Of a stretch of DNA of 64,000 nucleotides, positions 34,097 through 54,812 are shown in pieces (within the stretch, counting starts at the first letter, position 1; every line of letters starts with the position of its first letter). The stretch covers positions 2,490,471 through 2,554,470 of the forward strand of contig OX638379.1 of the NCBI GenBank assembly GCA_951813605.1, in the 5' to 3' direction. The DNA is from an uncultured Bryobacterales bacterium. GTDB lineage: Bacteria; Acidobacteriota; Terriglobia; Bryobacterales; UBA6623. The notes below the pieces were generated by a model. The model worked only from the letters and a program-made list of their open reading frames with translations, was not told the DNA's origin and made no database searches. Position numbers and translations under genes: made by a program.

Positions 34097-36646
34097 ATGA
34101 TCCGGACAATTCTTGCTCTTGCGTGCATTGGCGGGGTCCTGCCCGTGGCGGCTGCGGACGCGCCGGTCTTCGCGGAGGAAGTGGCTCCGATTCTCGAGCA
34201 GCGCTGCGTCCTGTGTCACGGCGACAAGCAGCAGCTGTCCGGCTTGCGCGTGGACAGCCGGGAGGCGCTGCTCCAAGGAGGGCAGCGCGGCCCATCGCTG
34301 GTGCCCGGTAACGCCGATAGCAGCACGCTCTACCTTCACGTCTCGGGCAAGGCCGAGCCGCGGATGCCCTTCGGCAGCACGCTCGCCGAGGGTGAGATTG
34401 CCACGCTGAAGCGGTGGATCGATACCGGCGCGCGCTGGGATTCACCGTCCGAACAGGCGGAGGGCAAGGAGGTCTGGTGGGCATTCCGAGACCCAGTCCG
34501 CCACGATCCCCCCGATCCGAGCGAGCACCCGGTCGACGCCTTCCTGTCGGCCCGCCTGGCTGACGACGGCTTGCGACGCGCCCCCCGCGCCGATCCGTCG
34601 ACTCTGGTGCGCCGGGCGTATCTCGACCTAGTCGGCTTGCTGCCGCCGACCGAAGTCGTCGATGCGTTCGCCAAGGACCCATCCCAAGAGGCTTTCGCGC
34701 GCTTGGTTGACGAGCTGCTCGACTCGCCAAGGCACGGGGAGCGCTGGGGACGGCACTGGCTGGACGCGGTGCGCTACGCGGACTCCTCCGGCTACGAGCA
34801 CGACTACGACCAGCCGCACGCCTGGCGCTACAGGGACTACGTGATCCGCGCCTTCAACGAAGACAAGCCCTACGACCGCTTTGTCCAGGAACAGCTGGCG
34901 GGTGACGAGATCGAGAACCCCAGCTTCGACGCGCTGACCGCGACGGGCATGCTGCGCGTCGGCCCGCGGGTGCTTTTCCGGGAGAAGGACAACCCGCAAT
35001 ACCGCTACAACTACCTTGACGACATGGTCGCCACCACGGGCCGCGTGTTCCTCGGCCTGACAGTGGACTGCGCGCGCTGCCACGACCACAAGTTCGACGA
35101 CATCAAGCAGATGGACTACTACCGCACGATGGCGGTGTTCTTTCCGTACGTGAGGTACGATTTCCCGCTGGCGGACGCGGCAACCGTCAAGCGCCACGAG
35201 GCCGAGACCGCGGCGGTCAACGCGAAGATCGATCCGATCAAGACGCAGATCGCCACAATCCAAGCGCCTTACAGGAAACGCGCGAGCGCACGCGCCCTCG
35301 CAAAATTCCCAGAGGAAATCCAAATCGCGGTGCGCACTCCGAAGCAGGAGCGGACTCCGGGCCAGCAGCTCCTGGCGGCCCAAGTCCAATCCATCCGCGC
35401 CACCGACTACGACGACCTTCTATCGGAGGCCGACGCCGAGCGGCTGGCAGATCTCAAGTCCCAAGTCGCCAAGCTGGAAGGCCAGCTTCCCGATCCCCTT
35501 CCGGCAGCGATGGGAATCCGGGACGGCGACTACCGGTTCGCCCCCGACGGCCTAGGTGACGAGCCCCAGCCAGGCAAGGGAGATCGCCAAGACTTCAGCG
35601 GAATCGACGGGACGTGGCTGCCGACAGCCGGCTACCGGCCACCCTCTGCCCACTTCCTTCCGAACGCCGATTACCGCAACAGGGGGGACGTCGTCGAGCC
35701 CGGCTTCATCGAGGCTCTCGCCCAGGGCACGCCGTTCGCGCCGAAATCCCCCTCTCACCGAATCTCGAGCGGGCGCCGCCTGGCACTCGCGAAATGGATC
35801 GCCTCGCCCGAAAACCCGCTTACGGCGCGCGTCATGGTCAACCGAATCTGGATGCACCATTTCGGCGAAGGACTTGTATACACAGCGAGCAACTTCGGCA
35901 GCATGGGCACACGCCCCACGCATCCCAAGCTGCTGGACTGGCTGGCCACCGAATTCGTCCGGCAGGGCTGGAGCATGAAGGCAATACACCGCTTGATCAT
36001 GACTTCGGAGAGTTACCAGATGGCGTCTGCCCACGGCGACGCTCTTGCAGCCAAGTCAGATCCGGAAAACAAGCTGCTATGGCGCTTCCGCCAGCGACGG
36101 CTGGAAGGCGAGGTCATCCGCGACATCATCCTCGACGCCTCCGGCAATCTCAACTTTGAAGCCGGAGGCCCCGGTTTCTTCCCGCCGATCCCAGAGGAGG
36201 TTCGCGAATCCTTTCCCAAGGGCAAGTGGGACATGGCGGAGCCGGGACCGGAGAACTGGAGGCGCAGCGTCTTTGCCTACGCCAAGCGGGGACTCCGTTA
36301 CCCGCTGTTCGAGGTCTTCGACCAACCGAACATGAACGTCACCTGCGAGCGTCGCACGACCACGACGGTGCCGACACAGGCCCTGACACTTCTCAACAAT
36401 GAATTTGCCTTGCAGCAGGCCCACAGCTACGCCAAACGCGTGTCCCGCGTTGCCGAAGACGACGCCGGGTGGGTCCGCGAGGCCTACCGCATTGCATTGA
36501 GCCGCGCGCCGACCGAGACCGAACTGAAAGCGAACCTTGACTTCCTCCGACAGCAGAAGGAATATCACAGGGGCGACACGGTCAAGGCCCTCACGGATCT
36601 CTGCGATGTGATCCTGAACCTCAACGAGTTTCTCTATGTCAGCTAA
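34097..36646 (+). CDS. PSCyt1-DUF1549-DUF1553 (PSD1) planctomycete-type cytochrome protein (cassette 2)
   Basis: 849 residues with a short signal peptide ending near VAAADA. The first heme motif is C37-xx-C40-H41 (RCVLCHGDK); the second is C325-xx-C328-H329 (DCARCHDHKFDD) in DUF1549. DUF1553 fills the C-terminal third, with SPENPLTARVMVNRIW, RLIMTSESYQMA and RRTTTTVPTQALTLLNN. Between the second heme motif and DUF1553 is a charged helical insert (about 350-470, KRHEAETAAVNAKIDPIKTQ) that looks coiled-coil and is largely missing from the cassette-1 protein. Domain order matches cassette 1, but the sequence has diverged. It is the first gene of a two-gene unit overlapping DUF1501 by 11 bases. 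Confidence 0.92.
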   Translation: MIRTILALACIGGVLPVAAADAPVFAEEVAPILEQRCVLCHGDKQQLSGLRVDSREALLQGGQRGPSLVPGNADSSTLYLHVSGKAEPRMPFGSTLAEGEIATLKRWIDTGARWDSPSEQAEGKEVWWAFRDPVRHDPPDPSEHPVDAFLSARLADDGLRRAPRADPSTLVRRAYLDLVGLLPPTEVVDAFAKDPSQEAFARLVDELLDSPRHGERWGRHWLDAVRYADSSGYEHDYDQPHAWRYRDYVIRAFNEDKPYDRFVQEQLAGDEIENPSFDALTATGMLRVGPRVLFREKDNPQYRYNYLDDMVATTGRVFLGLTVDCARCHDHKFDDIKQMDYYRTMAVFFPYVRYDFPLADAATVKRHEAETAAVNAKIDPIKTQIATIQAPYRKRASARALAKFPEEIQIAVRTPKQERTPGQQLLAAQVQSIRATDYDDLLSEADAERLADLKSQVAKLEGQLPDPLPAAMGIRDGDYRFAPDGLGDEPQPGKGDRQDFSGIDGTWLPTAGYRPPSAHFLPNADYRNRGDVVEPGFIEALAQGTPFAPKSPSHRISSGRRLALAKWIASPENPLTARVMVNRIWMHHFGEGLVYTASNFGSMGTRPTHPKLLDWLATEFVRQGWSMKAIHRLIMTSESYQMASAHGDALAAKSDPENKLLWRFRQRRLEGEVIRDIILDASGNLNFEAGGPGFFPPIPEEVRESFPKGKWDMAEPGPENWRRSVFAYAKRGLRYPLFEVFDQPNMNVTCERRTTTTVPTQALTLLNNEFALQQAHSYAKRVSRVAEDDAGWVREAYRIALSRAPTETELKANLDFLRQQKEYHRGDTVKALTDLCDVILNLNEFLYVS

Positions 36647-38087
36647 AGAACGCTTCGTATCGCGGCGGGACTTCCTGTTCGGGGCCGGCGAGGGCATCAG
36701 CGGCCTCGCGCTGGCGCACTTGCTCCAGCAAGACGGCCTCCTAGCCGCCGAGAGCGCCTGCGTGTCGCGGGGTATCGCCTCGCCCACGGCACCAAGGGAA
36801 CCGCACTTCAAGCCTCGGGCCAAAGCGGTGATCTCCCTGTTCATGAGCGGCGGCGTGAGCCATGTCGACACATTTGATTACAAGCCGATGCTCGAGAAGC
36901 ATCACGGCAAGCCGCTGACCGGCAAGGGCAACGTCCGCGTGCGCCAGGGCTTCCCGGGTCCGCTCATGCAAAGCCCGTTCAAGTTCCAGCGCCACGGCGA
37001 AAGCGGCAAGCTGGTTTCGGAGCTCTTCCCGCACATGGGCTCGATGGTGGATGACCTGGCCTTCGTGCATTCGTGCAAGGGCCGCTCCAACGACCATGTC
37101 CTAGCGCATTACGAGTGGAACACGGGATCGGTGCTGATGGGCCACCCAAGCGTAGGGAGCTGGGTAACGTACGGGCTGGGCTCGGAAAACCAGAGCCTGC
37201 CTGGCTTCGTGGTGGTCTACGACCACCGCGGGGGACCATTCTCGGGGCCTTCCAACTGGAGCAGCGGCTACCTGCCGGCCACTTACCAAGGCACTGTATT
37301 CCGTTCTCAGGGCGACCCCATTCTGGACCTGAAACCCCCGAGCGACCTTCTCGCGCCGGAGCAGCAGCGAGCCCGCCTAGACCATCTCGCGAAACTCAAC
37401 GAGGAGCACGCGAAGCGGCATCCTGGATCGAGCGAGCTGGCGGCGCGGATCGCCTCCTACGAACTGGCCTACAGGATGCAAGGCTGCGCGCCCGAAGCCG
37501 TGGATGTCTCGCAGGAATCGGAAGAGACGAAGCAGCTCTACGGCATGGACGACCCAGTCACGGAGCCGTTCGGCCGCCAGTGCCTGCTTGCCCGCCGCCT
37601 GGTCGAGCGAGGGGTCCGCTTCGTGCAGCTGTACAGCGGCGCGCTGCGACAGCAGAACATCGACACTTGGGACGCCCACAGCAACCTAATCGAGAACCAC
37701 ACGCTCCACGCCGGAGAAGTCGACCGGCCAATCGCGGGCTTGCTGAAGGACTTGAAGCGAACCGGGCTGCTGGACGACACCTTGGTGGTGTGGCACTCCG
37801 AGTTCGGGCGGATGCCGATTTCCCAGCGGGGCGTTGGCCGGGATCACAACCCGCACGCGATGACCGCCTGGATGGCTGGGGCCGGGATACGCGGCGGGCA
37901 GTCTATCGGCGCCACCGACGAATTCGGCTACAAGGCCGAGGAGCAAGTACTCACCTACCACGACCTGCACGCCACGATGCTGCACATGCTGGGCATGGAT
38001 CACAAGCGACTGACCTACTTCTTCAACGGTCGCCACATGCGCTTGACGGATGTGCATGGCGAGGTGATCCCGCAGATGCTGAGCTAG
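36636..38087 (+). CDS. DUF1501 family protein, Tat-exported (cassette 2)
   Basis: 483 residues. The Tat motif VSRRDFLFGAGEGISGLAL is clear. DUF1501 landmarks are SLFMSGGVSHVDTFDYKPML, SPFKFQRHGESGKLVSELFPHM, VLAHYEWNTGS, TWDAHSNLIENH and VVWHSEFGRMP followed by GRDHNPHAMTAWMAG. The start overlaps the end of the cytochrome gene by 11 bases, the same overlap as in cassette 1. The HSEFGRMP-GRDHNP pattern is the better conserved, apparently more typical form compared with the cassette-1 protein, which has a Cys/Ser-rich CSGEFGRTPDNN there. Function unknown; probably works with the cytochrome protein in the periplasm. Confidence 0.92.
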   Translation: MSAKERFVSRRDFLFGAGEGISGLALAHLLQQDGLLAAESACVSRGIASPTAPREPHFKPRAKAVISLFMSGGVSHVDTFDYKPMLEKHHGKPLTGKGNVRVRQGFPGPLMQSPFKFQRHGESGKLVSELFPHMGSMVDDLAFVHSCKGRSNDHVLAHYEWNTGSVLMGHPSVGSWVTYGLGSENQSLPGFVVVYDHRGGPFSGPSNWSSGYLPATYQGTVFRSQGDPILDLKPPSDLLAPEQQRARLDHLAKLNEEHAKRHPGSSELAARIASYELAYRMQGCAPEAVDVSQESEETKQLYGMDDPVTEPFGRQCLLARRLVERGVRFVQLYSGALRQQNIDTWDAHSNLIENHTLHAGEVDRPIAGLLKDLKRTGLLDDTLVVWHSEFGRMPISQRGVGRDHNPHAMTAWMAGAGIRGGQSIGATDEFGYKAEEQVLTYHDLHATMLHMLGMDHKRLTYFFNGRHMRLTDVHGEVIPQMLS

Positions 38088-41437: not shown

Positions 41438-42640
41438 CTACGAGAGCTTGAGCACCCTTCCCTCGCGTAACGCTTTGTTCGCCCAATGCGATGTGGCGGC
41501 GGCTTCCACACCGGCACGGATATGCGCGTTTGGCATAGCCCGGTCTCGGATGCAATCAAGCCAGTTCCGCATGTTGTCGAGAGTGCCGTTTCCGTCAACC
41601 CTCTCGATAGTCGAGGTGTCTTCGCTGCGCGCGAAGTGGTGAGTCGGCTCCGCCAGGCTCACTGCCTCGAAGGGTGTTGCGCCTTCCTCGTAGACAGCGT
41701 ACCCGAGCCGAGTCAGCGTCATCATGGCTTGGTCCCCGCGGAACACGATGCCACCTCCCAGCAACCCGAATGTCATGTTGCCCTCGTAGGCCGCCATGTA
41801 TCCCTCGGGGAAAAGCATCGTCGCAGTGACGGTATCGGGCGCTTCCAGCCAGTCTTGGGTATAGGTGGTTCCGGCGGCATGCACCTCGCTCGGCCGCGGG
41901 CTTTTCATGAACCACTGAATCACGTCGATCCAATGCGTCATCAGATCGGTGATGCTGCCGCCCCCGAAGTCCCAGAAGAACCGCCAGAATCGGAACCGGA
42001 CCTTGTCAAAGGGCTGCTTCGGTGCCGACCCCAGCCATTGGTCCCAGTCGAGTTGCCTCAAATCGACCTCTGGAGCGGGGTCCGCTCCGAATCGCGAGTA
42101 GTTTTGCGACCAGTAGCACCGAGCGAACGTGATCTTGCCCAGCACGCCGTCGTCGATCAATTGCTTTGCCTCGATGAAATGTTTCCAGCTTCGTTGCTGC
42201 GTCCCGGTCGCCACGACGCGACGCGACTCTTCGACTGCCTTGACAAGCTTGTCCCCTTCCGCCAGGTTGTGCGTGACAGGCTTCTCGACGTACACATCCT
42301 TGCCCGCCTGCACGGCTTCCATGGTCATCGGCGCGTGCCAGTGATCCGGCGTGCCGATGATGACCGCGTCGATGTCCTTGCTGTCGAGAACTTCACGGTA
42401 ATCGGCAAAGGCCTTTGCGGCCGGACCGAACTGCGCGGCCGCTTGCTCGCGCCTCGGCCGGTACACATCAGACACGCCTCGAACCTCCGCGCCTCCGATC
42501 CCGGGGACATACGAAGTCACGCCGCGCCCCCTGCCGCCGCAACCGATTAGAGCGACGCCGATGCGCTCGTTCGCTCCGAGAACGCGTTGGGCAGCCAGCG
42601 CTGTCGCCGCACTTGCCTGAAGAAAATCCCGTCGTTGCAT
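41438..42640 (-). CDS. Gfo/Idh/MocA family oxidoreductase, Tat-exported (copy 1)
   Basis: 400 residues. The N-terminus MQRRDFLQASAATALAAQ is a Tat signal. The nucleotide-binding Rossmann part has IGVALIGCGGRGRG and VIIGTPDHWHAPM; the catalytic lysine is in VYVEKPVTHNLAEG; the C-terminal alpha/beta domain has FWDFGGGSITDLMTHWIDVIQWF with the family's histidine and aspartate. These enzymes oxidise or epimerise sugars using a tightly held NAD(P). Exported members are abundant in Acidobacteria and Planctomycetes. By eye it is roughly three-quarters identical to the copy at 54966-56162. It is divergent from the Sel1-methyltransferase gene, with a palindrome in between. Confidence 0.93.
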   Translation of the reverse strand: MQRRDFLQASAATALAAQRVLGANERIGVALIGCGGRGRGVTSYVPGIGGAEVRGVSDVYRPRREQAAAQFGPAAKAFADYREVLDSKDIDAVIIGTPDHWHAPMTMEAVQAGKDVYVEKPVTHNLAEGDKLVKAVEESRRVVATGTQQRSWKHFIEAKQLIDDGVLGKITFARCYWSQNYSRFGADPAPEVDLRQLDWDQWLGSAPKQPFDKVRFRFWRFFWDFGGGSITDLMTHWIDVIQWFMKSPRPSEVHAAGTTYTQDWLEAPDTVTATMLFPEGYMAAYEGNMTFGLLGGGIVFRGDQAMMTLTRLGYAVYEEGATPFEAVSLAEPTHHFARSEDTSTIERVDGNGTLDNMRNWLDCIRDRAMPNAHIRAGVEAAATSHWANKALREGRVLKLS

Positions 42641-42716: not shown

Positions 42717-42728
42717 GAGTGTACACTC
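42717..42728. promoter_or_regulatory. 12-bp perfect palindrome in the divergent Gfo/Idh-Sel1 region
   Basis: GAGTGTACACTC is a perfect two-fold palindrome midway in the 126-base space between the divergent starts at 42640 and 42767. Its size and place suit a dimeric repressor operator controlling one or both genes. I could not match it to a named regulator. Confidence 0.4.
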
Positions 42729-42766: not shown

Positions 42767-45199
42767 TTGGAACAAATGCAGGGCAGGATCTTGCCTTGGG
42801 TTGCAGTTCGGCGTGCCATCTGTCGGCACAGTAGCCTCATGAAATCCTGCGCAGCCATTATCGCAAGCGCCGTCCGGAGGGCCCGGATCGGCCCACTGGG
42901 GCCTCGCCCGCGGACCGGCGCAATTCTCTCGCTCGCGCTTGCCGCTTGGGCTCCTTGCGAGGTCGGTGCACAGGCTATTCCTAGATCGCCGGCCGAGGCG
43001 GGACAGCATGCCACCTCGATTGAAGCGCTATTGGAAAAGGCGAAGCAAGGACAGGCGCAGGCGCAGTACGATCTGGCCGCCTATTTCGCGAGCGGCAAGT
43101 CGGGCCAGCCTTCGACTGCCGAAGCGGTGCACTGGCTCAGACAGGCCGCCGGGCAAGGCCATGCCCAAGCCCAATCCGACTTGGGCCGCCTGTATCACGG
43201 AGGCTTCGGAGTCCCGAAGGACGCCTCCCAAGCGGCCAAATGGCTGCAACGCGCCGCCGAACAAGGACACGCGCCCTCGCAAGCGGACCTAGGACGCCTT
43301 TACTACCTTGGCGACGGAGTAAAGCGCGACGCGGCTAGAGCCGCAGAGTGGTACGGCAAGGCGGCCAGGCAGGGGATAGCCACCGCGCAATTCAACCTCG
43401 CGGGGCTCCACGCGACGGGAGACGGGATCCCCAAGGACGCCGCGGAAGCGGCGAGTTGGTACCGCGCAGCAGCCGAGCAGGGACTCGCCGAAGCGCAGCA
43501 TGCCTTCGCGGTCGCACTGATCCGAGGCAACGGCATCCATGAGGACTTAGTGGCTGCCGCGGACTGGTTGCGCAAAGCAGCCGGGCAGGGTCTCCCGGAA
43601 GCGCAGTTCCTGCTGGCCAGGCAGCACGAAACAGGTGCGGGCGTGGCTCGCGATTTCGACGAGGCCGTCGGTCTGTACAAGCTCGCATCCGAGCAGGGCC
43701 TGGTTGAGGCGCAGCGTTCATTGGGCCGGCTCTACTGGGACGGACCAAGCGGGATAGCTGATCCCGTGCGAGGGCAAATGTGGCTGATTGTGGCCGCCCG
43801 AAACGCGCCGAAGGGGAGCCGAGAAACGATTGCCTCAGAGCGCGACGAGGCCGCACGCAACCTGACTGCAGAGCAGGCGGCCGATGCAGAGCGCCTAGCC
43901 GGTCGCTGGACAAGAAGAACTTGGGCCGAAATCCAAGACTCGTCGCCGACGAAACTCACTGCGGCCGTACATTCGACGGGCCTTACAGAATTCTTCCGCT
44001 CTGCTGGTCAGCGCATCGCAGAGGCGCAAGTTGAATACGACAAATACTGGCGACCTCACATCGAACGGAGCCGATTGGGCATTCTCGAGGCAGCGCATCT
44101 CGTCCGCGAGCCAGGAACCGCATTGGTGCTAGGAGCCGGAGCGTGCAGGGAGATTCCGTTGGAAGAACTAGCAGAGATGTTCAATCGCGTGGTGCTGGTG
44201 GATCTGGACTCCCCGAGCATGAGCGCTGCGGTCGCGCGGATTCCCCGACACCTACGGAACAAGATCGAGATCCGGGTTTCGGACGTGACCTCGTTCGCCA
44301 AGCCGCTGATGGATGCGACAGCTCACATCATGGGGAACGCCCGGACCGCATCGGACGCCTTTATTCAATTGAGATCGCTGTACGGCGCGATCAATGCAAT
44401 CGAGCGGCCTCCCAGCCTGCCGCAAGCAGACCTCGTCGTCTCCTCTCTGGTGCTTTCCGAGCTCGCCCGTTATCCCAGCACGTACGCGGCTCGGCTATTC
44501 AGCGAAAGATTCAATGCGAACCTGTCCGAATGGAGGGGTTCCGGGGCCCTGTGGAGGACACTTCGCGAGTTCTCCTCGTCGGACCATGCCTCGATGCTCG
44601 CCCGTCTGGTTCGCCCTGGGAGCGTCGTCTATTTCGCCGATACGGTCGGGCGGGGGCCCGATCTACGCTGGGTGGACAGCAAGGAGAAACGGACAGCGCT
44701 TAGGGTCATTGCCGAGGAGCTAGCCCAACTCGGTGTTTTCCAAGAAATCCGCAACCGCCGGGAAGCATGGGAATTTCTCCAGTCCGCTTTCCGCAATCTT
44801 GAATCCGTCGCGAGTGGCTTCGAGCCACGTCAAAGCGGTGTGGCTGAGACGAACCTCGAATCACTGGTTGCCGCTATTGAGGGGGCTCCGGGCCACCCTC
44901 CTGCAGAGGCGGACCGAGTTGCTAATGCGACGACTCAACTGCTTTGTCAAGATCGATTGCCCGTCGATATCGAGATCTCCGCGTACGAGGCCGTGCTCGA
45001 TTCCTACGAATCTGTGGAGCCACGCACTTTGGAAAGACTTCTCGATTGGGACGGATTCTTGGGAGCACTAAGAAGTCTCCGACTCGAACCTATCGGAGCC
45101 GCTAGGAGCTGGAAGTGGCTGGAGTACGCTTGCCAAATCCCGCGAGGATCGGGCGGTTTCACTGTTCGCAGCGTCATACTGCGGAATCTAGGCAAGTGA
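42767..45199 (+). CDS. Sel1-repeat protein fused to a SAM-methyltransferase-like Rossmann domain
   Basis: Up to 810 residues; the ATG at 42839 (residue 25) is an alternative start. A hydrophobic stretch TGAILSLALAAWAPCEVGAQA near 50-70 could be a signal peptide or anchor. Residues 97-348 hold seven consecutive 36-residue Sel1 repeats (A-AQ-LG-LY-G-GV-KD--A--W---AA-QG pattern). After a ~100-residue linker, residues 430-620 resemble a class I methyltransferase: motif I VLGAGACREIP at 454-464, acidic end of the second strand VVLVDLD at 475-481, SDVTSF at 505-510 and ADLVVSSLVLSEL as motif IV. The last ~190 residues are not recognised. A Sel1-methyltransferase fusion is unusual. Sel1 repeats bind protein partners, so the enzyme part may modify a bound protein. 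Function unknown. Confidence 0.75.
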   Translation: MEQMQGRILPWVAVRRAICRHSSLMKSCAAIIASAVRRARIGPLGPRPRTGAILSLALAAWAPCEVGAQAIPRSPAEAGQHATSIEALLEKAKQGQAQAQYDLAAYFASGKSGQPSTAEAVHWLRQAAGQGHAQAQSDLGRLYHGGFGVPKDASQAAKWLQRAAEQGHAPSQADLGRLYYLGDGVKRDAARAAEWYGKAARQGIATAQFNLAGLHATGDGIPKDAAEAASWYRAAAEQGLAEAQHAFAVALIRGNGIHEDLVAAADWLRKAAGQGLPEAQFLLARQHETGAGVARDFDEAVGLYKLASEQGLVEAQRSLGRLYWDGPSGIADPVRGQMWLIVAARNAPKGSRETIASERDEAARNLTAEQAADAERLAGRWTRRTWAEIQDSSPTKLTAAVHSTGLTEFFRSAGQRIAEAQVEYDKYWRPHIERSRLGILEAAHLVREPGTALVLGAGACREIPLEELAEMFNRVVLVDLDSPSMSAAVARIPRHLRNKIEIRVSDVTSFAKPLMDATAHIMGNARTASDAFIQLRSLYGAINAIERPPSLPQADLVVSSLVLSELARYPSTYAARLFSERFNANLSEWRGSGALWRTLREFSSSDHASMLARLVRPGSVVYFADTVGRGPDLRWVDSKEKRTALRVIAEELAQLGVFQEIRNRREAWEFLQSAFRNLESVASGFEPRQSGVAETNLESLVAAIEGAPGHPPAEADRVANATTQLLCQDRLPVDIEISAYEAVLDSYESVEPRTLERLLDWDGFLGALRSLRLEPIGAARSWKWLEYACQIPRGSGGFTVRSVILRNLGK

Positions 45200-45347: not shown

Positions 45348-47320
45348 ATGACCCAACATTCAAGCAGGATCTTGCTGCTCTCTTTCTTGTCGATGGCTTT
45401 ATCACTCGCTCCATTGATGCAAAGAATCTCGTACGGCCAAGCAGTAGAAGCGACGGCAAATTTGGTCGGCCAAGTCACGGACGAGACCGGGGCCGTTATT
45501 CCCGGCGTCGACTTGACGCTGACAAATCAGGACACGAATATAGCGGTGAACGGACAGGCCAACGCGGTCGGGTACTACCGGTTTTCGTTCCCCAGGCCCG
45601 CCACGTATACGCTTACCGCTCAGCTGACTGGCTTCACGATCAACGCCGTCGAGAATATCGCCTTCCAAGTCAATCAAACCGCGGATATCAACATCTCCCT
45701 GAGTCCCAGCGCGGTGCAAAAGACAGTCACTGGTTCGGCCAGTTCGGCCGTGCTCTCGACGCAGACCTCCGAACTCGGGGAAGTGGTATCGGAGAAACCG
45801 GTGAAGCAGCTCCCCCTCCTGATGCGGGATCCCAGTTCGTTAGTCACCCTAGTCGCAGGTGTAACCGCCGATCACCGCTTGCAGACACGCGGTCTGGACC
45901 GGTCCGGGCTGTCGTTCCAGGGTCGATTGACCATCTCGGCGCACGGGGGAGTTCGCGCGCAGGCCAATGCCATGGTCGATGGCCTGCACGTGACCTTCAC
46001 GCACGCCGCCTTCAACTCCGTGCCGATCGTACTGACGCCCGACGTGACGCAAGAATTCCAAGTCATGACCAATAACTACTCGGCGGAGTTCGGGCGCGCA
46101 AACGTGGTCATGAATTACGCCACCAAGAGCGGAACGAACGAGTTCCACGGAAACGCCTGCCTGTTCCATCAGAACGAGAACCTGAACGCGAACGCGTTGT
46201 TCCTCAATCGGGCCGGTGTCGACAAGACGGAGGCGCGCCGCAACCAGTTCGGGGGCACAATCGGACGGCCTATCAAGAGGAACAAGCTCTGGTTCTTCGC
46301 GGACTGGGAGAAGGTGGTCCAAGCCAGAGCGTTGACGATCGTCTCGCGCATGCCGGACGCGCGCGAGTATGGGAGGCGATTACGCTGACCTCTTCACTTC
46401 GGCCGGCGACCCGATCAGCGTCTACGATCCCTTCGGCACCTACACGGACGCCAATGGCCGGACCTTGCGCATGCCGTTTTTCGGCAACCCAATCCCGGCT
46501 TCTTTGAGCAATCCCTTCGGTCCGCGCGTGGGCCCTTTCTGGGCGCAGCCGAACAACCCCGGATTGGAGGGCCCAACGGCGAGCGCACCAATATCGCCAA
46601 CCTGAACTTGGGCGGCTCGAGCAGGGTGGACTGGAGGCGCTGGGACGTCAAGGCCGACTACCAGATGAATCAGGGCCACAAGTTCATGGGCCGGTATTCG
46701 GCAAGCCTCCTCCTTCTGCCGGCGGTTCGCGTGTACAACACTCCCGGGGAAACAACCCGCCTGAGCAATCGCAACGACCAGCAGCCCGGCAGGCACGCGG
46801 TGCCGTCATGGCCTTGGACGGCCTCGCCAACACTAATGGTCACGCAGGCGTTCAACCACACTTGGTTCCGTGACTACACGCCCCGCGTGAATGGACAGCA
46901 GGGTTTCGATGTGGCGTCGCTTGGCGGCCCATTCAACAAGCCAGAGGCCATCTCGTTCCTCAACGAATGGGGAGGCGGCGCAGCCTTCCCTAGCGTTTCA
47001 CCATCCGGCTACGGACCTCTGAGCGACAACATCTCCAACATTATCGACGAGCCGGCGGCAAACTACTCCTACCAAGTCGGGTTCATCAAGAGCCTCGCGT
47101 CTCGCACCCTGAATTTCGGCGGCAATGCCAATCGCCGGGAAATGAACCGGCGGGCGTTCGGGGGCTTGGGGGGAGCGCTCGATTTCAACGGCAGATTCAC
47201 GCAAGGCCCCGACCCGCTGCTACCATCCGCCAACACGGGCAATTCGATCGCCGATCTCATGGTTGGCCTGCCTGGGGGGGGCTCCATGGCCGCCGGATTC
47301 ACCACGGCGACAATAAATTC
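45348..47320 (+). pseudogene. Decayed Oar-like TonB-dependent receptor, frameshifted twice and truncated
   Basis: The N-terminus from the ATG at 45348 (good GGGAGGA site upstream) is intact: signal peptide, CarboxypepD_reg domain, plug with YSAEFGRANVV and SGTNEFHG. Compared with the intact neighbour at 48119-51751, a one-base insertion near 46368 moves the frame, and a one-base loss near 46577 restores it; between them GGDYADLF and NPFGPRVGPFW read in the shifted frame. Homology then continues through TTRLSNRNDQQPGR and GYGPLSDNISNI to FTTAT, and stops about 10 bases before an IS-like inverted repeat at 47321. The C-terminal half of the barrel is absent. This is a tandem duplicate that has lost function. 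Confidence 0.88.
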
Positions 47321-48003
47321 CCTGATTCCCTAGGAACGGCATCCTATGTTGAGCGGCCAATGGTCGAGGAGGAGGCGTCGCACCAATGCAGACCAAGAGC
47401 GGCATGAGGAGTCTCCTGAACTCGTCGCTTCGTGGTCGCCCGACCCGCACCACCGTGATCGCAGTCCCGGTGCCGGACTGGCGCACGCGGGAGCAGCCAC
47501 CACAACAAACAAGGGCCCACATTTGCTTTTCTTACGCTAAATGATTGACATACAAGGAATTAATTGCGATGATAATGAGTGCCCCGAGCGATTCCCCGCG
47601 GTTTCATGCCCAAGAGCAAGGTCCAGTTCCAGAAAGGCCTCAGCCTCAAAGCCTTCCTCGACCGCTCCGGCTGCGAAGCCCACTGCGAGCAGGCACTGAT
47701 CCGCATCCGCTGGCCCGACGGCCTCGACTGCCCCGCCTGCGGTTCCTCCCGCTTCTGCCGCCTGCACTCCCGCCGCCTGCTCCAGTGCAACCGCTGCAAG
47801 CGCCAGGTCTCCTTGCTGGCCGGCACCATCTTCCAGTCCACCAAGCTCCCTCTCAGCACCTGGCTGCTCGCCCTCTACCTGCCGGCGCAGGCCTTCCCGC
47901 CGAATAGAGAGCGAGAACCGGGAATCGCACACCTGAGCGAGGATCCCGGCAATGGAACGGATCGATTCGTCTCGGCCCAGGATGAGCTTTCTAGGGAATC
48001 AGG
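47321..48003. mobile_element. IS1595-like element remnant with perfect 13-bp terminal inverted repeats
   Basis: CCTGATTCCCTAG at 47321-47333 is repeated as its exact reverse complement at 47991-48003, bounding 683 bases. Inside is the N-terminal part of an ISXO2/IS1595 transposase (47606 to about 47890), with no DDE domain. No clear target duplication was found: the left flank AATAAATTC does not match the right flank ATTTGTTTT. The left end abuts the point where receptor homology stops. The element is too short to be autonomous. Confidence 0.75.
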
Positions 48004-48052
48004 ATTTGTTTTGACACTAGATTGTATTGACACCCCCCGTTTCCTCTTCTAG
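47606..48052 (+). pseudogene. IS1595-family transposase fragment (zinc-ribbon N-terminus only)
   Basis: The likely start is the ATG at 47606. The protein shows the IS1595/ISXO2 N-terminal zinc ribbon: CPACGSSRFCRL followed by LLQCNRCKRQVSLLAGTIF and then STKLPLSTWLLALYL, which in full transposases leads into the DDE domain. Here similarity ends near 47885 and the frame runs into unrelated sequence with a stop at 48052, beyond the right inverted repeat. Only about 95 of the usual ~300 residues remain, so no transposase activity is expected. Confidence 0.82.
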
Positions 48053-48118: not shown

Positions 48119-51100
48119 ATGAAATCAATTCCCAACCGCAATCGACTCCTTTTCGCCCTCTTTCTTGCGGCTGGACTAGTTGTTCTGACGCAAAGACCTG
48201 TTGACGGTCAAGCCCTGGGAGCGACTGCGACCTTGGTAGGGCAGGTCACCGATGAAACGGGCGCGGTCATTCCCGGGGTTGAGCTGATCCTTACGAACCA
48301 GGACACCAATGTCTCCGTGCCCGGAGAATCTAACGAAGTCGGTTACTACCGGTTCTCTTTCTTGAGGCCCGCAACCTACACGCTCACCGCTCAACAGCCC
48401 GGGTTCACCATCAACACGGTTGAAAACATCGTTCTTCAAGTCAACCAAACTTCGGACATCAATATCAGTCTCAGGCCCAGCGCAGTGCAAGAGACTGTGA
48501 CCGTCTCAGCCAGCACGGCCGTGCTCTCAACGCAAACATCCGAGCTCAGCGAAGTCGTGTCCGAGACCTCGGTCAAGCAGCTGCCGCTTCTGATGAGGGA
48601 TCCCAGTTCCTTGGTCAACCTGGTCGCCGGCGTCACAGCCGATCACCGCTCGCAGACGCGCGGGCTCGATCGTTCGGGACTGTCATTCCAGGGTCGGCTT
48701 ACATTCACTGCAAACGGCGGGGTCCGAGCACAAGCCAATGCCATGGTCGACGGCGTGGATGTGACATTCACACATGCCGCCTTTAACTCGGTACCCATCG
48801 TTCTGACACCCGACGTCACCCAAGAATTCCAGGTCATGACCAACAACTATTCGGCGGAATTCGGGCGGGCCAACGTGGTGATGAACTATGTGACCAAGAG
48901 CGGAACCAATGAGTTTCACGGCAGCGGCTACCTGTTCCACCAAAACGACAACTTGAATGCGAATGCGTTCTTCCTGAACCGGGCCGGCGTCGGCAAGACC
49001 GAGGCCCGGCGCAATCAATTTGGGGGCACGATCGGCGGACCAATCAAGACCAACAAACTCTGGTTCTTCGCGGACTGGGAAAAGATGGTCCAAGCCAGGG
49101 CGCTGACGATCGTCTCGCGGATGCCTGACAACCGCGAGCTGGCTGGAGACTATGCGGATCTGTTCACTACCGCTGGCAATCCGATCACAGTATTCAATCC
49201 GCTCGACACGTACTCCGACGCAAATGGCCGCACATTGCGGCGACCGTTTGCCAACAACCGGATCCCGGACCAGATGATCAACCCGTTCGGGCCGAGGCTC
49301 GCTCCTTTTTGGGGCAAGCCGAACAACCCGGGCTTGCAGGGGCCGAACGGCGAGCGAACCAATATAGCCAATCTGAACGTAGGTGGTGCCAGCAGAGTGG
49401 ATTGGAGGCGCTGGGACGTCAAGGCCGACTACCAGATGAATCAGAACCACAAGTTCATGGGCCGCTATTCAGAGAGCTTTCTTCTGCTTCCTGTTGTTCG
49501 CGTTTACAACACGCCGGGAGAAACCACTCGGCTTAGCAATCGAAACGATCAGCAACCAGGCAGGAACGCCGTGCTTTCTTGGACTTGGACGGCCTCGCCG
49601 ACCTTGATGCTCACGCAGGCGTTCAACCACACTTGGTTCCGCGATTACACACCCCGCGTGGAAGGACAGTTGGGATTCGACGTTGCATCCCTCGGCGGTC
49701 CCTTCAGCAATCCAGATGTCATCTCGTTCCTCAACGAATGGGGTGGCGGAGCCGCCTTTCCGAGCATCTCGCCCAGTGGCTATGGGCCGTTGAGCGACAA
49801 CATTTCCAATATCATCGACGAGCCGGCAGCGAACTACTCGTATCAGGTCGGCTTTATCAAGAGCCTTTCTTCTCACACGCTGAAGTTCGGCGGCAACGCC
49901 AACCGCCGCGAGATGAACCAGCGGGCATTCGGCGGATTGGGCGGCAATTTCGATTTCAACGGCCGATTCACGCAGGGCCCCGACCCGCTGTTGCCTTCCG
50001 CCAACACGGGCAATTCAATTGCCGATCTCATGCTCGGCCTGCCCGCAGGCGGCTCCATGGATGCCGGATTCACGACGGCGACGAAGAACTACTATTACGG
50101 TTTCTACTTCCAGGATGACTGGCGCGTGACGCCTCGGCTTACGCTGAACCTGGGCTTGCGGTTCGAGGTGGAACAGCCTTTCCAGGACCGCTTCGACCAC
50201 TTCTCGCGCGTCGCCCGCGACGTCCGCAGCCCCATCGCCGATTCCGTCGGGCCCAATACGAGTGGCAAGAACCTCGACCAGTTCTTTCAGGATCTGGTCG
50301 GCCGGCCACTCCTGGGGGGCATTGCATGGCCAGGCGTTGCCGGCTTCGGGCGCGGCATCGATTCCACGGACAGGAACAACATTGCGCCGCGACTGGGATT
50401 CGCCTATCGTCTCAGCGAAAGGCTTGTGGTCCGAGGAGGCTTTGCGCGCATCTACGGCTTGAATCCAAACGCGGCGACGGTGGCCGCCGTCGGACCGCCG
50501 GGCAACGGGGCGACAACGCCGATCGTCGCCACGATCGACGGGATCCACCCCAATGTGACCATCGACAACCCCTTCCCGAGCGGTTTCAACGAACCGGAAT
50601 TCGACAAAGACGGGCTGGGGACGGCTCTGGGCCAACGGATTTGGGCCGGGAGCGCCAACGGTGTCGCAGAGACTCCATATCAGTGGCAGTGGAATTTTGG
50701 ATTCCAATACCAGCTGCCCGACGAGTCGATTGTCTCGCTGGCCTACGCCGGAAGTCGCGCGCGCAACTTGACATGCGCCCTGTTCTTCTGTAGCGACCAG
50801 ATCGCCGAGCAGGATTTTTCGAGGTTTCGAGAGAGGGTCTTCGAGACCGTACCGAATCCATTCTTCGGCATCATCACCGATCCGACATCCGCCTTGAGCT
50901 TCCCAGAAGTGCAGTTCGGGCAGCTGCTCCTGCAGCACCCCCAGTACGTCGGGATGTTAAATACCCTGCCTCCCTGGAAGGGACCGAACGGCGACGATTT
51001 CCGGAGCAGCTTCGAATCGATGCAGCTCTCCTACAAGAAGGTCACGGGGGACTTGTCCCTGTCGCTGGCCTATACATTCTCAAAGAACATTACGAATTCA

Positions 51101-51751
51101 GACTCGTTCGAGAACGGCTTTCTCGGCCCCTCGGTGGGTTATCAGAACAACGTCACATTCACCGGGGAGAAATCGCTTTCGGCGGAAGACGTAACGCATC
51201 GAGCCGTGGTCGGTTGGGTCTACGAACTTCCATTCGGGCGCGACAAGCGCTTCGGGAAGGGCATGAACCCCGTAGTAGACAGCATTCTCGGAGGTTGGGA
51301 GGTTGGCGGCATCATGACGCTCTCGAGCGGGTTTCCGATCGGCCAGAACTTCATTTCGCCGGACCTGACCGGCGCCTTCGGAGGCAGCAACCGTTCCGAC
51401 CTGATCGGCAACCCGTGCCTGGCTACCAATAGGCCACGCGGAGAGGAGATCGCACAGTGGGTGAACCCGGCCGCCTTCGCCGCGCCGGATCCCTTCCGAT
51501 TCGGAACGACGCCTCGAACCCTCAACGGCTGTCGTATAGACGGGATAAAGAATTTCGACATCACGGTCGTGAAGCACATTCCCATCAGGGAGACCCTACG
51601 GGCGGAGTTCCGCGCAGAGTTCTTCAATGCCTTCAACCGGCCGCAGTTTCAGGCGCCGAACATGACGTTCGGGAGTGCCTCGTTCGGACAGGTGACGGTT
51701 CAGGAAAACCTGCCCCGCGTCGTCCAGCTGGCGTTGAAGATCCATTTCTGA
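48119..51751 (+). CDS. TonB-dependent receptor, Oar-like, with N-terminal carboxypeptidase-regulatory domain (intact tandem paralogue)
   Basis: 1210 residues from the ATG at 48119, which opens a standard signal peptide (MKSIPNRNRLLFALFLAAG, cut near DGQA); the upstream ATG at 48089 would put ten charged residues before it. Domains: CarboxypepD_reg at about 37-125 (LVGQVTDETGAVIPGV), plug at about 145-310 (YSAEFGRANVVMNYVTKSG), barrel to the end, with YGFYFQDDWRVTPRLTLNLGL, IAPRLGFAYRLS, YELPFGRDKRFG, FFNAFNRPQFQAP and the terminal LALKIHF. By eye it is very similar to the pseudogene immediately upstream, so the pair arose by tandem duplication. Likely substrate: a large nutrient, not identifiable from sequence. 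Confidence 0.93.
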   Translation: MKSIPNRNRLLFALFLAAGLVVLTQRPVDGQALGATATLVGQVTDETGAVIPGVELILTNQDTNVSVPGESNEVGYYRFSFLRPATYTLTAQQPGFTINTVENIVLQVNQTSDINISLRPSAVQETVTVSASTAVLSTQTSELSEVVSETSVKQLPLLMRDPSSLVNLVAGVTADHRSQTRGLDRSGLSFQGRLTFTANGGVRAQANAMVDGVDVTFTHAAFNSVPIVLTPDVTQEFQVMTNNYSAEFGRANVVMNYVTKSGTNEFHGSGYLFHQNDNLNANAFFLNRAGVGKTEARRNQFGGTIGGPIKTNKLWFFADWEKMVQARALTIVSRMPDNRELAGDYADLFTTAGNPITVFNPLDTYSDANGRTLRRPFANNRIPDQMINPFGPRLAPFWGKPNNPGLQGPNGERTNIANLNVGGASRVDWRRWDVKADYQMNQNHKFMGRYSESFLLLPVVRVYNTPGETTRLSNRNDQQPGRNAVLSWTWTASPTLMLTQAFNHTWFRDYTPRVEGQLGFDVASLGGPFSNPDVISFLNEWGGGAAFPSISPSGYGPLSDNISNIIDEPAANYSYQVGFIKSLSSHTLKFGGNANRREMNQRAFGGLGGNFDFNGRFTQGPDPLLPSANTGNSIADLMLGLPAGGSMDAGFTTATKNYYYGFYFQDDWRVTPRLTLNLGLRFEVEQPFQDRFDHFSRVARDVRSPIADSVGPNTSGKNLDQFFQDLVGRPLLGGIAWPGVAGFGRGIDSTDRNNIAPRLGFAYRLSERLVVRGGFARIYGLNPNAATVAAVGPPGNGATTPIVATIDGIHPNVTIDNPFPSGFNEPEFDKDGLGTALGQRIWAGSANGVAETPYQWQWNFGFQYQLPDESIVSLAYAGSRARNLTCALFFCSDQIAEQDFSRFRERVFETVPNPFFGIITDPTSALSFPEVQFGQLLLQHPQYVGMLNTLPPWKGPNGDDFRSSFESMQLSYKKVTGDLSLSLAYTFSKNITNSDSFENGFLGPSVGYQNNVTFTGEKSLSAEDVTHRAVVGWVYELPFGRDKRFGKGMNPVVDSILGGWEVGGIMTLSSGFPIGQNFISPDLTGAFGGSNRSDLIGNPCLATNRPRGEEIAQWVNPAAFAAPDPFRFGTTPRTLNGCRIDGIKNFDITVVKHIPIRETLRAEFRAEFFNAFNRPQFQAPNMTFGSASFGQVTVQENLPRVVQLALKIHF

Positions 51752-51950: not shown

Positions 51951-54812
51951 ATGCGCCTGCATTTCTGGGCAGCGCTCATCCTGACCATCCTCCTCGCCCT
52001 CGCCAGCTCCGCGACGGGGCAGACTGGTTCCAAGAGTGTCGATCCAAGTATTGCCTCGCCCCCGAATTCGTCCGGCATAGGAATGCTGCAAGAGCGGGTT
52101 CGCGATTCCCCTCGTGATCCTGCTGCCCACTATGAGCTCGGGACCGCGCTGGCGAACATTGGGCGCTACGAGGAAGCGGCCCACGCACTTCAGGATGCGC
52201 TAAGGCTCCGGCCGCTTTCCGAGAGAGCCCACTATGCTCTCGGGCTCGTGCGATTTCGGCTCGGAGACTTGGATGCGGCCATTGAGCTCCTGCTGGAGGC
52301 GATCGAACTCGATCCGCACTCTGCGGAGGCTCACAACGCTCTCGGGCTGGTTCTGGGGCAGAAGGGCCGGGACGTTGGCGAAGTGATCTTTCACTTCCGA
52401 GAGGCCGTGCGGAAGAAGCCGGACTTTGCGGAAGCGCATAGGAACCTGGGCCTGATGCTCGCTCAGGCGCGGGATCCGGAGGAGTCGATCAACGCGCTGC
52501 GGGAGGCAGTTCGGCTCAAGCCCGATTGGGCCGAGGCTCATAACTCGTTGGCCGTTGCGATTGTCAGGAGGAGCCCTCGTGAAGCGATCAAGCATTATCG
52601 GCGCGCGCTTGAGTTGAGTCCGGAGTTCGCGGCGGTGCACTTCAACCTGTCCATTGCGTACGGGTACCTGGACGATACGGACAACGAGATCGCGAGTCTG
52701 AGGCGGTATATCGAGTTGAAGCCTGACGCACCCCTCGCACACGGCAATCTCGGGAAGGCTCTCGAGGGAACCGGGAAGGTGACGGATGCAGTGGCGCACC
52801 TTCGACGGGCAATTGCATTGGACGAAAGTTCGGCGACCATGCACTACTACCTCGGTCGCGTGCTGCTCAAGCTCGGTGAATTCAAAGAGGCCGCCCGCGA
52901 ACTGCGAAGGTCCCTAGAACTGGACCCGGAGCTCGTGGAATCGCGTCGACTGCTGGCCAGTGCCTTGCGGAGGGCCGGTAAGGTCGAGGAGGCCAGGGAG
53001 GAGCAGGAAAAAGCACAAGCCGTGACCAAGTCCGACCTCGCCGACTCCGCGGCAGACATAAGAATGTCTCTCGGCCGCCAGAAGTTGAGGGAAGGCGATT
53101 TCGACGAAGCGATTCCGGTTTTCGAGGAGCTGACGGTCTTGGCGGCCGACTGGCCGGAGGCTCACTACTTCCTCGGCGTAGCGCTGATGCAAAACGGCTC
53201 CGCTCGGCGGGCGATTGGGCCGCTGGAGCGTGCGATCGAGCTTCGGCGGGATTTCTTCGAAGCCCACTACAGCCTTGGTTTGGCGTTCCGAGAGGGCCAG
53301 GATCTCGATCAGGCCATGGCAGGGTTTCGCAGGGCTCTCGCCTTACGCCCTTCATCCGCAGAGGCGCATACCTCGCTGGGAGAAGTGCTGGCACAAAAGG
53401 GGCAGCTTGAAGCGGCTGTGCGGTCGGTGCAGATGGCAATCAAGCTGGCCCCGGAGTATCCCGAGGCGCGGCTTCAATTCGGTACATTGCTTGGGCTTCG
53501 GGGCGACGTCGAAGGCTCAATTCAACAATTCCAGACAGCCCTGGACTTGAATGGCGACTACCCAGAGGCTCACGACGCGCTGGGCGTGGCTTTCGCCGCG
53601 CAAGGCGACTCGGAAGGGGCGCTTCGAGAATTCGAAGCTGCGCTGGCCGCAAGGCCCGACTACGCCCTGGCCCACTACCATATAGGCGGCATTCGCCTCC
53701 AGCAGAAAGACTACACGGCTGCCATGGGTGCTTTCCACGAGGCCCTGCGACATCGGCCCGACTACGCCGAAGGTCGCAATCAGTTGGGTGTTGCGCTGGT
53801 GCATCTCGGCCGCTTCGACGAAGCTGTCATCGAGCATCAGAAAGCTCTGGCATTGCGCCCGACCCTTACGGAAGCGCGTTTCAACCTAGCCCTGGTGTAC
53901 GAGCAACAAGGCCGGATCGAGGAACAGATCTCGGAATTCCGGAACGTCATTCGGGGAGATCCTCTCCATCGGGACGCGCAACGGAGGCTTGGCAGGGCAC
54001 TGGAGTCTCTTGGCAGAACGAACGAGGCGATCCAGGTTCATCGCGCGGCTGCCAAGACATGGCCGGACTCGGAAGCACATCTGCTGCTAGGGAGCGCTCT
54101 GGCCAAGGCCAATAGGTACGAGGAGGCAATCTCCGCTCTACGCAAGGCACGAGACCTCGAGCCATCCTTGGTTGCCGCTCACCACCAGCTAGGAATGGCC
54201 CTGCGGCAGGTCGGAAAGCGCGATGAGGCCCTGGAGGAATTCAAGAAAGCTGACGCGATCAGGAATCGAAGTGATGCTACATTCCGCGCGGGTGCCCAGC
54301 TACAAGCGGGTTTGGCAATAGTTGGTTCGGGAGATCTGGAAGGCGCCATCGCGGAATTCGAGCGGGCAGTCGAGTTGGATCCAGACTCGGCCGAAGCGCG
54401 TCAATTTCTTGGAGTCGCTCGGTACCGCAACGGAGATTTGAATCAGGCGATAGGGGAGCTGACGCGGGCGTTGGAATTGCGCCCCGACTACTTCCAGGCG
54501 CGCTACACGCTGGGTCTCGTGCGTGCGAAGCAAGGAGACCTCAGCGGCTCTGTCGCCGATTTCCAGGACGCACTACGAATCGACGACCGCGTAGCCAAGT
54601 GCCACGACGACCTAGGGTTGGCATACGCCAAGCAAGGAAGGCTGGAGGATGCGATCAAACAATTCGAGCGGGCTGCGGATCTCGATCCGGACCTTGCTGT
54701 CGCTCACTACCATCTCGGGTGGGGACTGCGTCAAAGCAACCGGATCGAAGCGGCCCGCAAGGCTTTCGCTGCCGCCGAGCGGCTGGACCCGCGAATGAAG
54801 AGTCCGTTATGA
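51951..54812 (+). CDS. Exported protein made almost entirely of TPR repeats
   Basis: 953 residues from the ATG at 51951 (GAGAGGGAGC upstream); the open frame from 51867 adds residues before a clear signal peptide (MRLHFWAALILTILLALASSATGQ). From about residue 45 to the end it is continuous 34-residue TPR units, about 26 of them, with the A-Y-LG-AL---G--EEA---L--AL-L-P pattern visible throughout (for example HYELGTALANIGRYEEAA near the start and HYHLGWGLRQSNRIEAARKA at the end). No enzymatic domain is seen. Such superhelices bind peptides or assemble complexes; here it would act in the periplasm. It follows the receptor by 200 bases on the same strand, possibly in one transcript. Confidence 0.9.
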   Translation: MRLHFWAALILTILLALASSATGQTGSKSVDPSIASPPNSSGIGMLQERVRDSPRDPAAHYELGTALANIGRYEEAAHALQDALRLRPLSERAHYALGLVRFRLGDLDAAIELLLEAIELDPHSAEAHNALGLVLGQKGRDVGEVIFHFREAVRKKPDFAEAHRNLGLMLAQARDPEESINALREAVRLKPDWAEAHNSLAVAIVRRSPREAIKHYRRALELSPEFAAVHFNLSIAYGYLDDTDNEIASLRRYIELKPDAPLAHGNLGKALEGTGKVTDAVAHLRRAIALDESSATMHYYLGRVLLKLGEFKEAARELRRSLELDPELVESRRLLASALRRAGKVEEAREEQEKAQAVTKSDLADSAADIRMSLGRQKLREGDFDEAIPVFEELTVLAADWPEAHYFLGVALMQNGSARRAIGPLERAIELRRDFFEAHYSLGLAFREGQDLDQAMAGFRRALALRPSSAEAHTSLGEVLAQKGQLEAAVRSVQMAIKLAPEYPEARLQFGTLLGLRGDVEGSIQQFQTALDLNGDYPEAHDALGVAFAAQGDSEGALREFEAALAARPDYALAHYHIGGIRLQQKDYTAAMGAFHEALRHRPDYAEGRNQLGVALVHLGRFDEAVIEHQKALALRPTLTEARFNLALVYEQQGRIEEQISEFRNVIRGDPLHRDAQRRLGRALESLGRTNEAIQVHRAAAKTWPDSEAHLLLGSALAKANRYEEAISALRKARDLEPSLVAAHHQLGMALRQVGKRDEALEEFKKADAIRNRSDATFRAGAQLQAGLAIVGSGDLEGAIAEFERAVELDPDSAEARQFLGVARYRNGDLNQAIGELTRALELRPDYFQARYTLGLVRAKQGDLSGSVADFQDALRIDDRVAKCHDDLGLAYAKQGRLEDAIKQFERAADLDPDLAVAHYHLGWGLRQSNRIEAARKAFAAAERLDPRMKSPL

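Follow-up and report, generated by a model that had tools for sequence, protein, structure and literature searches.

The window, a stretch of 64,000 nucleotides from an uncultured Bryobacterales bacterium, contains an open reading frame of 810 codons on the forward strand, from a TTG at 42767 to the stop at 45199. The frame reported in the earlier note was borne out by the ORF list. The most likely start is the ATG at 42839, which gives a gene of 42839–45199 (+) and a product of 786 aa; the TTG at 42767 and an ATG at 42776 are possible alternative starts. The genome, assembled as a single contig of 6.19 Mb, has one copy of the gene. From N- to C-terminus, the product consists of a hydrophobic stretch, an array of seven Sel1 repeats and a class I methyltransferase-fold domain, and the three parts that the earlier note had placed in one protein were all present. 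In a full-length model (pLDDT 81.8, pTM 0.52), the first 59 residues were of low confidence, and the placement of the Sel1 array, its cap and the domain relative to each other was not reliable. Across the Sel1 and methyltransferase parts, dN/dS was approximately 0.21–0.25.

The same architecture was found at 56% identity in a second species of the genus, Bryobacterales RHO3_bin_36 (G007, locus L020), together with the same neighbours, namely a divergent oxidoreductase and, downstream, a barrel protein (88% identity) and a TPR protein (65%). It had been considered beforehand that the two halves might be separate genes in homologues and that this gene might be a local assembly join. The first part of this proved correct to the extent that eight relatives carry the domain without Sel1 repeats, and this is the observation that would favour a join or a chance fusion of two genes. 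The join itself was rejected, because the same junction is found, with the same neighbours, in the independently assembled genome of the second species; the window also lies inside a single contig. The likelihood of an assembly join or chance fusion is considered negligible.

In total, the family has ten members: the two Sel1 fusions and eight standalone-domain genes. Within the genus, six of 11 genomes contained the domain. It was also found in one genome from a second genus of the bacterial family, and two genomes from another bacterial family of the order had it at full length. The standalone genes occur in the genus, the sister genus and the other family, and all have a hydrophobic stretch before the domain. 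Among 257 genomes of the order, there were hits in four genomes outside the bacterial family, two of which had full-length members. Among 396 genomes of the phylum, only distant non-exported relatives were seen besides the window's own gene. Other phyla were covered by one scan of genome contigs with short patterns of the window's protein. No description of this methyltransferase-fold family was found in the literature, and neither periplasmic SAM methyltransferases of this kind nor Sel1-methyltransferase fusions were found in the open-access literature.

The gene divergent from the Sel1-methyltransferase gene encodes a GFO/IDH/MocA oxidoreductase (41438–42640, −; Pfam E = 1.9e-22) with a TAT-like start, for which the TAT-signal match was just under the cut-off. 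A divergent oxidoreductase had been described earlier, and the gene is divergent in G007 too, where the L039 sequence includes its beginning. The gap between the two genes holds the 12-bp palindrome that had been noted, GAGTGTACACTC, at 42717–42728. A perfect 12-bp palindrome would be expected by chance in a gap of such size about 3 times in 100 (115 positions × 4^-6). At the corresponding place in the G007 locus (L039) the sequence is GAGTGTACAATC, so the palindromic symmetry seen in the window is not conserved in the relative. These two sequences suggest that GAGTGTACACTC is more probably the extended −10 element of a promoter (TGTACACT/TGTACAAT); a sigma-70 scan of the gap gave no site at the tool threshold.

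Downstream, a CarboxypepD_reg/outer-membrane beta-barrel protein (48119–51751, +; Pfam E = 6.7e-182) is followed by an exported-looking TPR-repeat protein (51963–54812, +; Pfam TPR). The neighbours in both the window and the relative include predicted exported or outer-membrane proteins. The adjacency of the barrel gene was rejected as weak evidence for export, because the genome is rich in such barrels (at least 65 genes of family PF25183). A broken copy of the barrel gene (45348–47333) was also observed, downstream of the Sel1 gene and ahead of the intact barrel gene; its pieces, 45348–46388 and 46608–47333, are 80–85% identical to the relative's intact gene, and the relative has only one barrel copy at the corresponding place. 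Between the broken and intact genes lies an IS1595-type transposase fragment (47579–48052; zinc ribbon E = 4.6e-12). Upstream in the window, a planctomycete-type pair was seen at 34097–38087, a PSCyt1/PSCyt2/PSD1 (DUF1549/DUF1553) gene followed by a DUF1501 gene.

The Sel1 array with its C-terminal helical cap spans 43007–43906 (+). It matched Pfam PF08238 with E = 5.5e-43 and a score of 144.3 bits, against a curated cut-off of 30.7, and six stretches passed individually. The full-length model showed seven helix pairs at residues 73–322 of the ATG form, which correspond to 97–346 of the TTG form and fit closely with the seven repeats at 97–348 proposed from the sequence. The dN/dS value for the Sel1 part was 0.21. 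From the sequences compared, the array appears to be present in one lineage of the family only. In another genus of the bacterial family, two adjacent genes with very long Sel1 arrays were observed (G014:C1:1704218-1708935; open frames of 540 and 1118 aa).

The C-terminal domain (43982–45196, +) was modelled with AlphaFold2 as the C-terminal 405 residues, using nine homologues, and the model had a pLDDT of 88.1 and a pTM of 0.85. It contained the seven class I core strands in order, at positions 46–50, 69–74, 95–99, 149–155, 210–225, 368–380 and 392–402 of the domain, with strands 6 and 7 forming the terminal beta hairpin. In the structural aligner, the best PDB match was the N-methyltransferase NodS (3ofk), with Z = 17.0 and 176 of its 181 residues aligned. 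Of the 1000 PDB chains compared, 941 gave Z ≥ 8; the best Foldseek E-value against the PDB was 1.7e-5. Searching the PDB by sequence or profile yielded chance-level matches only. No Pfam family passed its cut-off in the C-terminal half of the protein, and Methyltransf_11 (PF08241) scored 12.6–14.6 bits, under its curated cut-off of 21.2. Based on the model, the methyltransferase fold is clear despite the sub-threshold Pfam score. The Rossmann region recognised in the earlier note, whose core might have been missing from a predicted structure, was therefore present with all seven strands. The approximately 190 residues that had been left unassigned did not form a separate region; they correspond to a set of helices inserted between strands 5 and 6, together with the last two strands, and lie inside the methyltransferase fold.

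The first part of the protein bears on its location. The region encoded by 42839–42976 (+) is a putative secretion signal, with an arginine-rich start, the hydrophobic stretch TGAILSLALAAWAPC and AQA before the likely cleavage site. A hydrophobic N-terminus, as the earlier note had described, was found in all ten family members, this one included, with lengths of 12–24 residues and hydropathy peaks of 1.9–3.1. For comparison, the maximum was 1.76 in 13 cytosolic-type genes and 1.17 in five non-exported relatives. The peak of the window's protein, 1.90, was the weakest of the family, and for this reason the case for its export rests on the family. Small residues were present at the likely cleavage sites of the family N-termini. 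The positive charges were mostly N-terminal of the hydrophobic stretch and therefore predict an N-in, C-out orientation, with the domain outside.

The two invariant cysteines of the family also bear on location. The first (LLC, 44945–44947, +) and the second (YAC, 45131–45133, +), which is in the last beta hairpin, are residues 322 and 384 of the domain and correspond to alignment columns 371 and 434. Both positions are Cys in 10/10 exported members and in 0/5 non-exported relatives, and in a tree that included these relatives the ten exported rows formed one side of a branch with support of 86/96. Two cysteines of this kind would be expected to bond where conditions are oxidising. Since all ten members have hydrophobic N-termini and share two cysteines that are absent from the five relatives, this small family is probably exported and probably disulfide-bonded, and export of the window's protein itself is considered likely.

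The opposite location was weighed against the same evidence. A cytoplasmic methyltransferase, or one anchored in the membrane and facing the cytoplasm, would have SAM available, and the hydrophobic stretch would then be an uncleaved anchor or would be left untranslated. Starts after the stretch are possible: a TTG at codon 99 of the frame precedes the first Sel1 helix, and the relative has an ATG. However, the stretch is present in every member, and in G011 and G055 there is no start codon between it and the domain. The position of the charges, the short length of the stretches with small residues at the likely cleavage sites, and the restriction of the cysteine pair to the exported clade all argue in the same direction. 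The signal itself had a dN/dS of 0.15 in the G008/G002 comparison, although the value was 0.5–0.6, over few changes, in G001/G006. A cytoplasmic or cytoplasm-facing protein is thus an unlikely explanation, and of the two options that the earlier note had left for the hydrophobic N-terminus, the membrane anchor is less well supported than export.

The donor-binding motifs were examined in the nine aligned members, which share 38–55% identity, and motifs I–IV contained invariant residues throughout. Motif I (VLGAGACR, 44126–44149, +), the glycine loop after strand 1, has V49, L50, G51, G53 and the next E57 invariant. Motif II (VLVDLDS, 44192–44212, +), which includes the acid predicted to contact the ribose of the donor, has invariant D74 and D76. 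In motif III (DVT, 44282–44290, +), D101 and T103 are invariant, and in motif IV (DLVVSSLVLSEL, 44429–44464, +) this applies to D150, V153, S154, S155, L156 and L158. The GxG of the glycine loop and the acid at the end of strand 2 (G51, G53, D74 and D76) are also kept in the five non-exported relatives. Further invariant polar residues were E18, H26, R31, R163, D201, H202 and R224. For three pairs, the dN/dS of the domain was 0.17–0.26. Because the motif residues are invariant and the values for both the domain and the Sel1 part are low, the sequence resembles that of an enzyme or binding protein that is being maintained, not one in decay. With the pocket motifs kept under purifying selection, it most likely binds SAM or a SAM-like nucleoside, and we favour, with reservations, a SAM-type pocket that is still in use.

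An exported protein that has kept the fold and performs no methyl transfer, serving instead as a periplasmic binding or scaffold module, would remove the problem of the missing methyl donor. Many methyltransferases carry an acid two residues ahead of the glycine loop, and this acid is absent from the family (VLGAG); it is equally absent from the non-exported relatives. Sel1 repeats are, moreover, scaffolds by nature. The invariance of motifs I–IV and of many polar residues across the nine members is a more enzyme-like pattern, and together with the low dN/dS of the domain it speaks against such a pseudoenzyme, which is a reasonable alternative but not the probable one. The suggestion in the earlier note of an exported protein with lost catalysis found no support in the sequence, because the donor-binding motifs have been retained under purifying selection.

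Taken together, the best explanation is that the protein is an exported acidobacterial class I methyltransferase-fold protein with a disulfide, a Sel1 docking array and a SAM-type pocket, and we regard this as moderately probable. A Sec-type signal would direct the protein through the inner membrane, and the methyltransferase-like domain would fold outside the cytoplasm with a disulfide between the two family-specific cysteines. The seven Sel1 repeats, lying between the signal and the domain, would most likely serve to dock a partner or substrate within the cell envelope, and the domain would most likely still bind its SAM-type ligand. The architecture, the fold, the recurring fusion, the hydrophobic N-termini of all ten members, the cysteine pair and the conserved motifs were observed directly, whereas export, the disulfide, Sel1 docking and ligand binding are the parts of this explanation that we infer. 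No free SAM pool or SAM source is known outside the cytoplasm, which makes it odd for an exported protein to keep a SAM pocket. That the protein is an active methyltransferase outside the cytoplasm is put forward tentatively. Its substrate would then belong to the envelope or the exterior, SAM would be exported by the cell or come from the surroundings, and the Sel1 array would pick the target; this fuller version is likewise doubtful.

A secreted effector acting inside eukaryotic cells, where SAM is present, would also avoid the donor problem, with the Sel1 repeats as the part that binds host proteins. Papers on sponge symbionts discuss Sel1 among the eukaryotic-like repeats, and the name RHO3 of the relative's MAG may refer to the sponge Rhopaloeides, although the literature found did not name the habitat of RHO3_bin_36. 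Bacteria are known to secrete methyltransferases that act on host proteins; one example, Rv1988, leaves the bacterial cell and works inside host cells, which contain SAM (PMC10117894). Unlike the window's protein, Rv1988 has no Sel1 array. Sel1 counts are similar between groups (6–26 matches per genome in the window's genus compared to 0–20 in other families of the order), and most members of the protein family have no Sel1 repeats. Since there is no clear Sel1 enrichment in the genus and no paper naming the habitat of the MAG, a sponge-symbiont effector is only a weak rival and is judged very unlikely.

Returning to the probably exported methyltransferase-fold protein, its core is shared with several known enzymes. 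NodS (3ofk), TehB, RebM and NNMT have in common with it the Rossmann-like seven-strand core including the terminal hairpin, the glycine loop and the acids of motifs II–IV, at 9–19% sequence identity to the domain in structural alignments. However, they are cytoplasmic, have neither a signal peptide nor Sel1 repeats, and their strands 5 and 6 are not separated by the long helical insertion. The nearest sequence relatives are non-exported Acidobacteriota methyltransferase-like proteins (LGAGNCNDLDL type L018, L029–L032; L010 and L047). These share the LGAG loop, the D-x-D of motif II and the W-x-W of strand 6, but are shorter and have neither the hydrophobic N-terminus nor the cysteine pair. ExoR, AlgK and MotX carry a Sel1 array behind an export signal, as is predicted here (NCBIfam matches of the window's protein at E approximately 1e-14, all far below cut-offs), but without a methyltransferase domain. 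The window's protein is a known class I fold in a new form and does not amount to a novel type of system.

The class I methyltransferases need SAM, which is usually considered a metabolite of the cytoplasm. A conserved, exported-looking family with a branch-specific cysteine pair and kept donor motifs is a direct test case. Either some bacteria perform extracytoplasmic SAM chemistry, or the pocket of a methyltransferase has come to serve a different ligand. The paradox of a SAM-type fold outside the cytoplasm is sharpened by these results, not solved.

A second handle on function is the frequent pairing of the family with an exported-looking protein of the FGE-sulfatase fold, whose gene adjoins six of the eight standalone genes (G001, G002, G006, G007:C18, G008 and G581). 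This partner of approximately 253 aa has its own hydrophobic N-terminus, and FGE-sulfatase was the sole domain matched by Pfam (residues 35–250 of 253). No close relative of it was found in the window's genome. In an alignment to 6muj, the two copper cysteines of true formylglycine-generating enzymes were absent (RGGSYLCHDSYC compared to RGGSWF---RYM). In this respect the partner does not match a formylglycine-generating enzyme, in which the copper cysteines come after RGGS; other residues take their places here. OvoA and EgtB-EgtD combine the same two folds, FGE and methyltransferase, which here are side by side in the six standalone loci. In contrast to those systems, both proteins here look exported and the partner is confined to the FGE-sulfatase domain. 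An ovothiol/ergothioneine-type pair (EgtB + EgtD, OvoA) was also rejected, as there is no DinB-type iron-binding part before the FGE domain.

In G581, from another bacterial family (L045:8849-10750), the methyltransferase-like and FGE-fold genes are divergent, while elsewhere they are co-directional. A conserved run was observed at five loci (L034:3740-11573, L035, L036, L038 and L048). It begins with the standalone methyltransferase-like gene, the FGE-fold gene and a sigma-70-family (ECF-like) gene. It continues with a protein of approximately 698 aa, which has an N-terminal zf-HC2 domain (anti-sigma type) and otherwise no Pfam match, and then with a second barrel gene.
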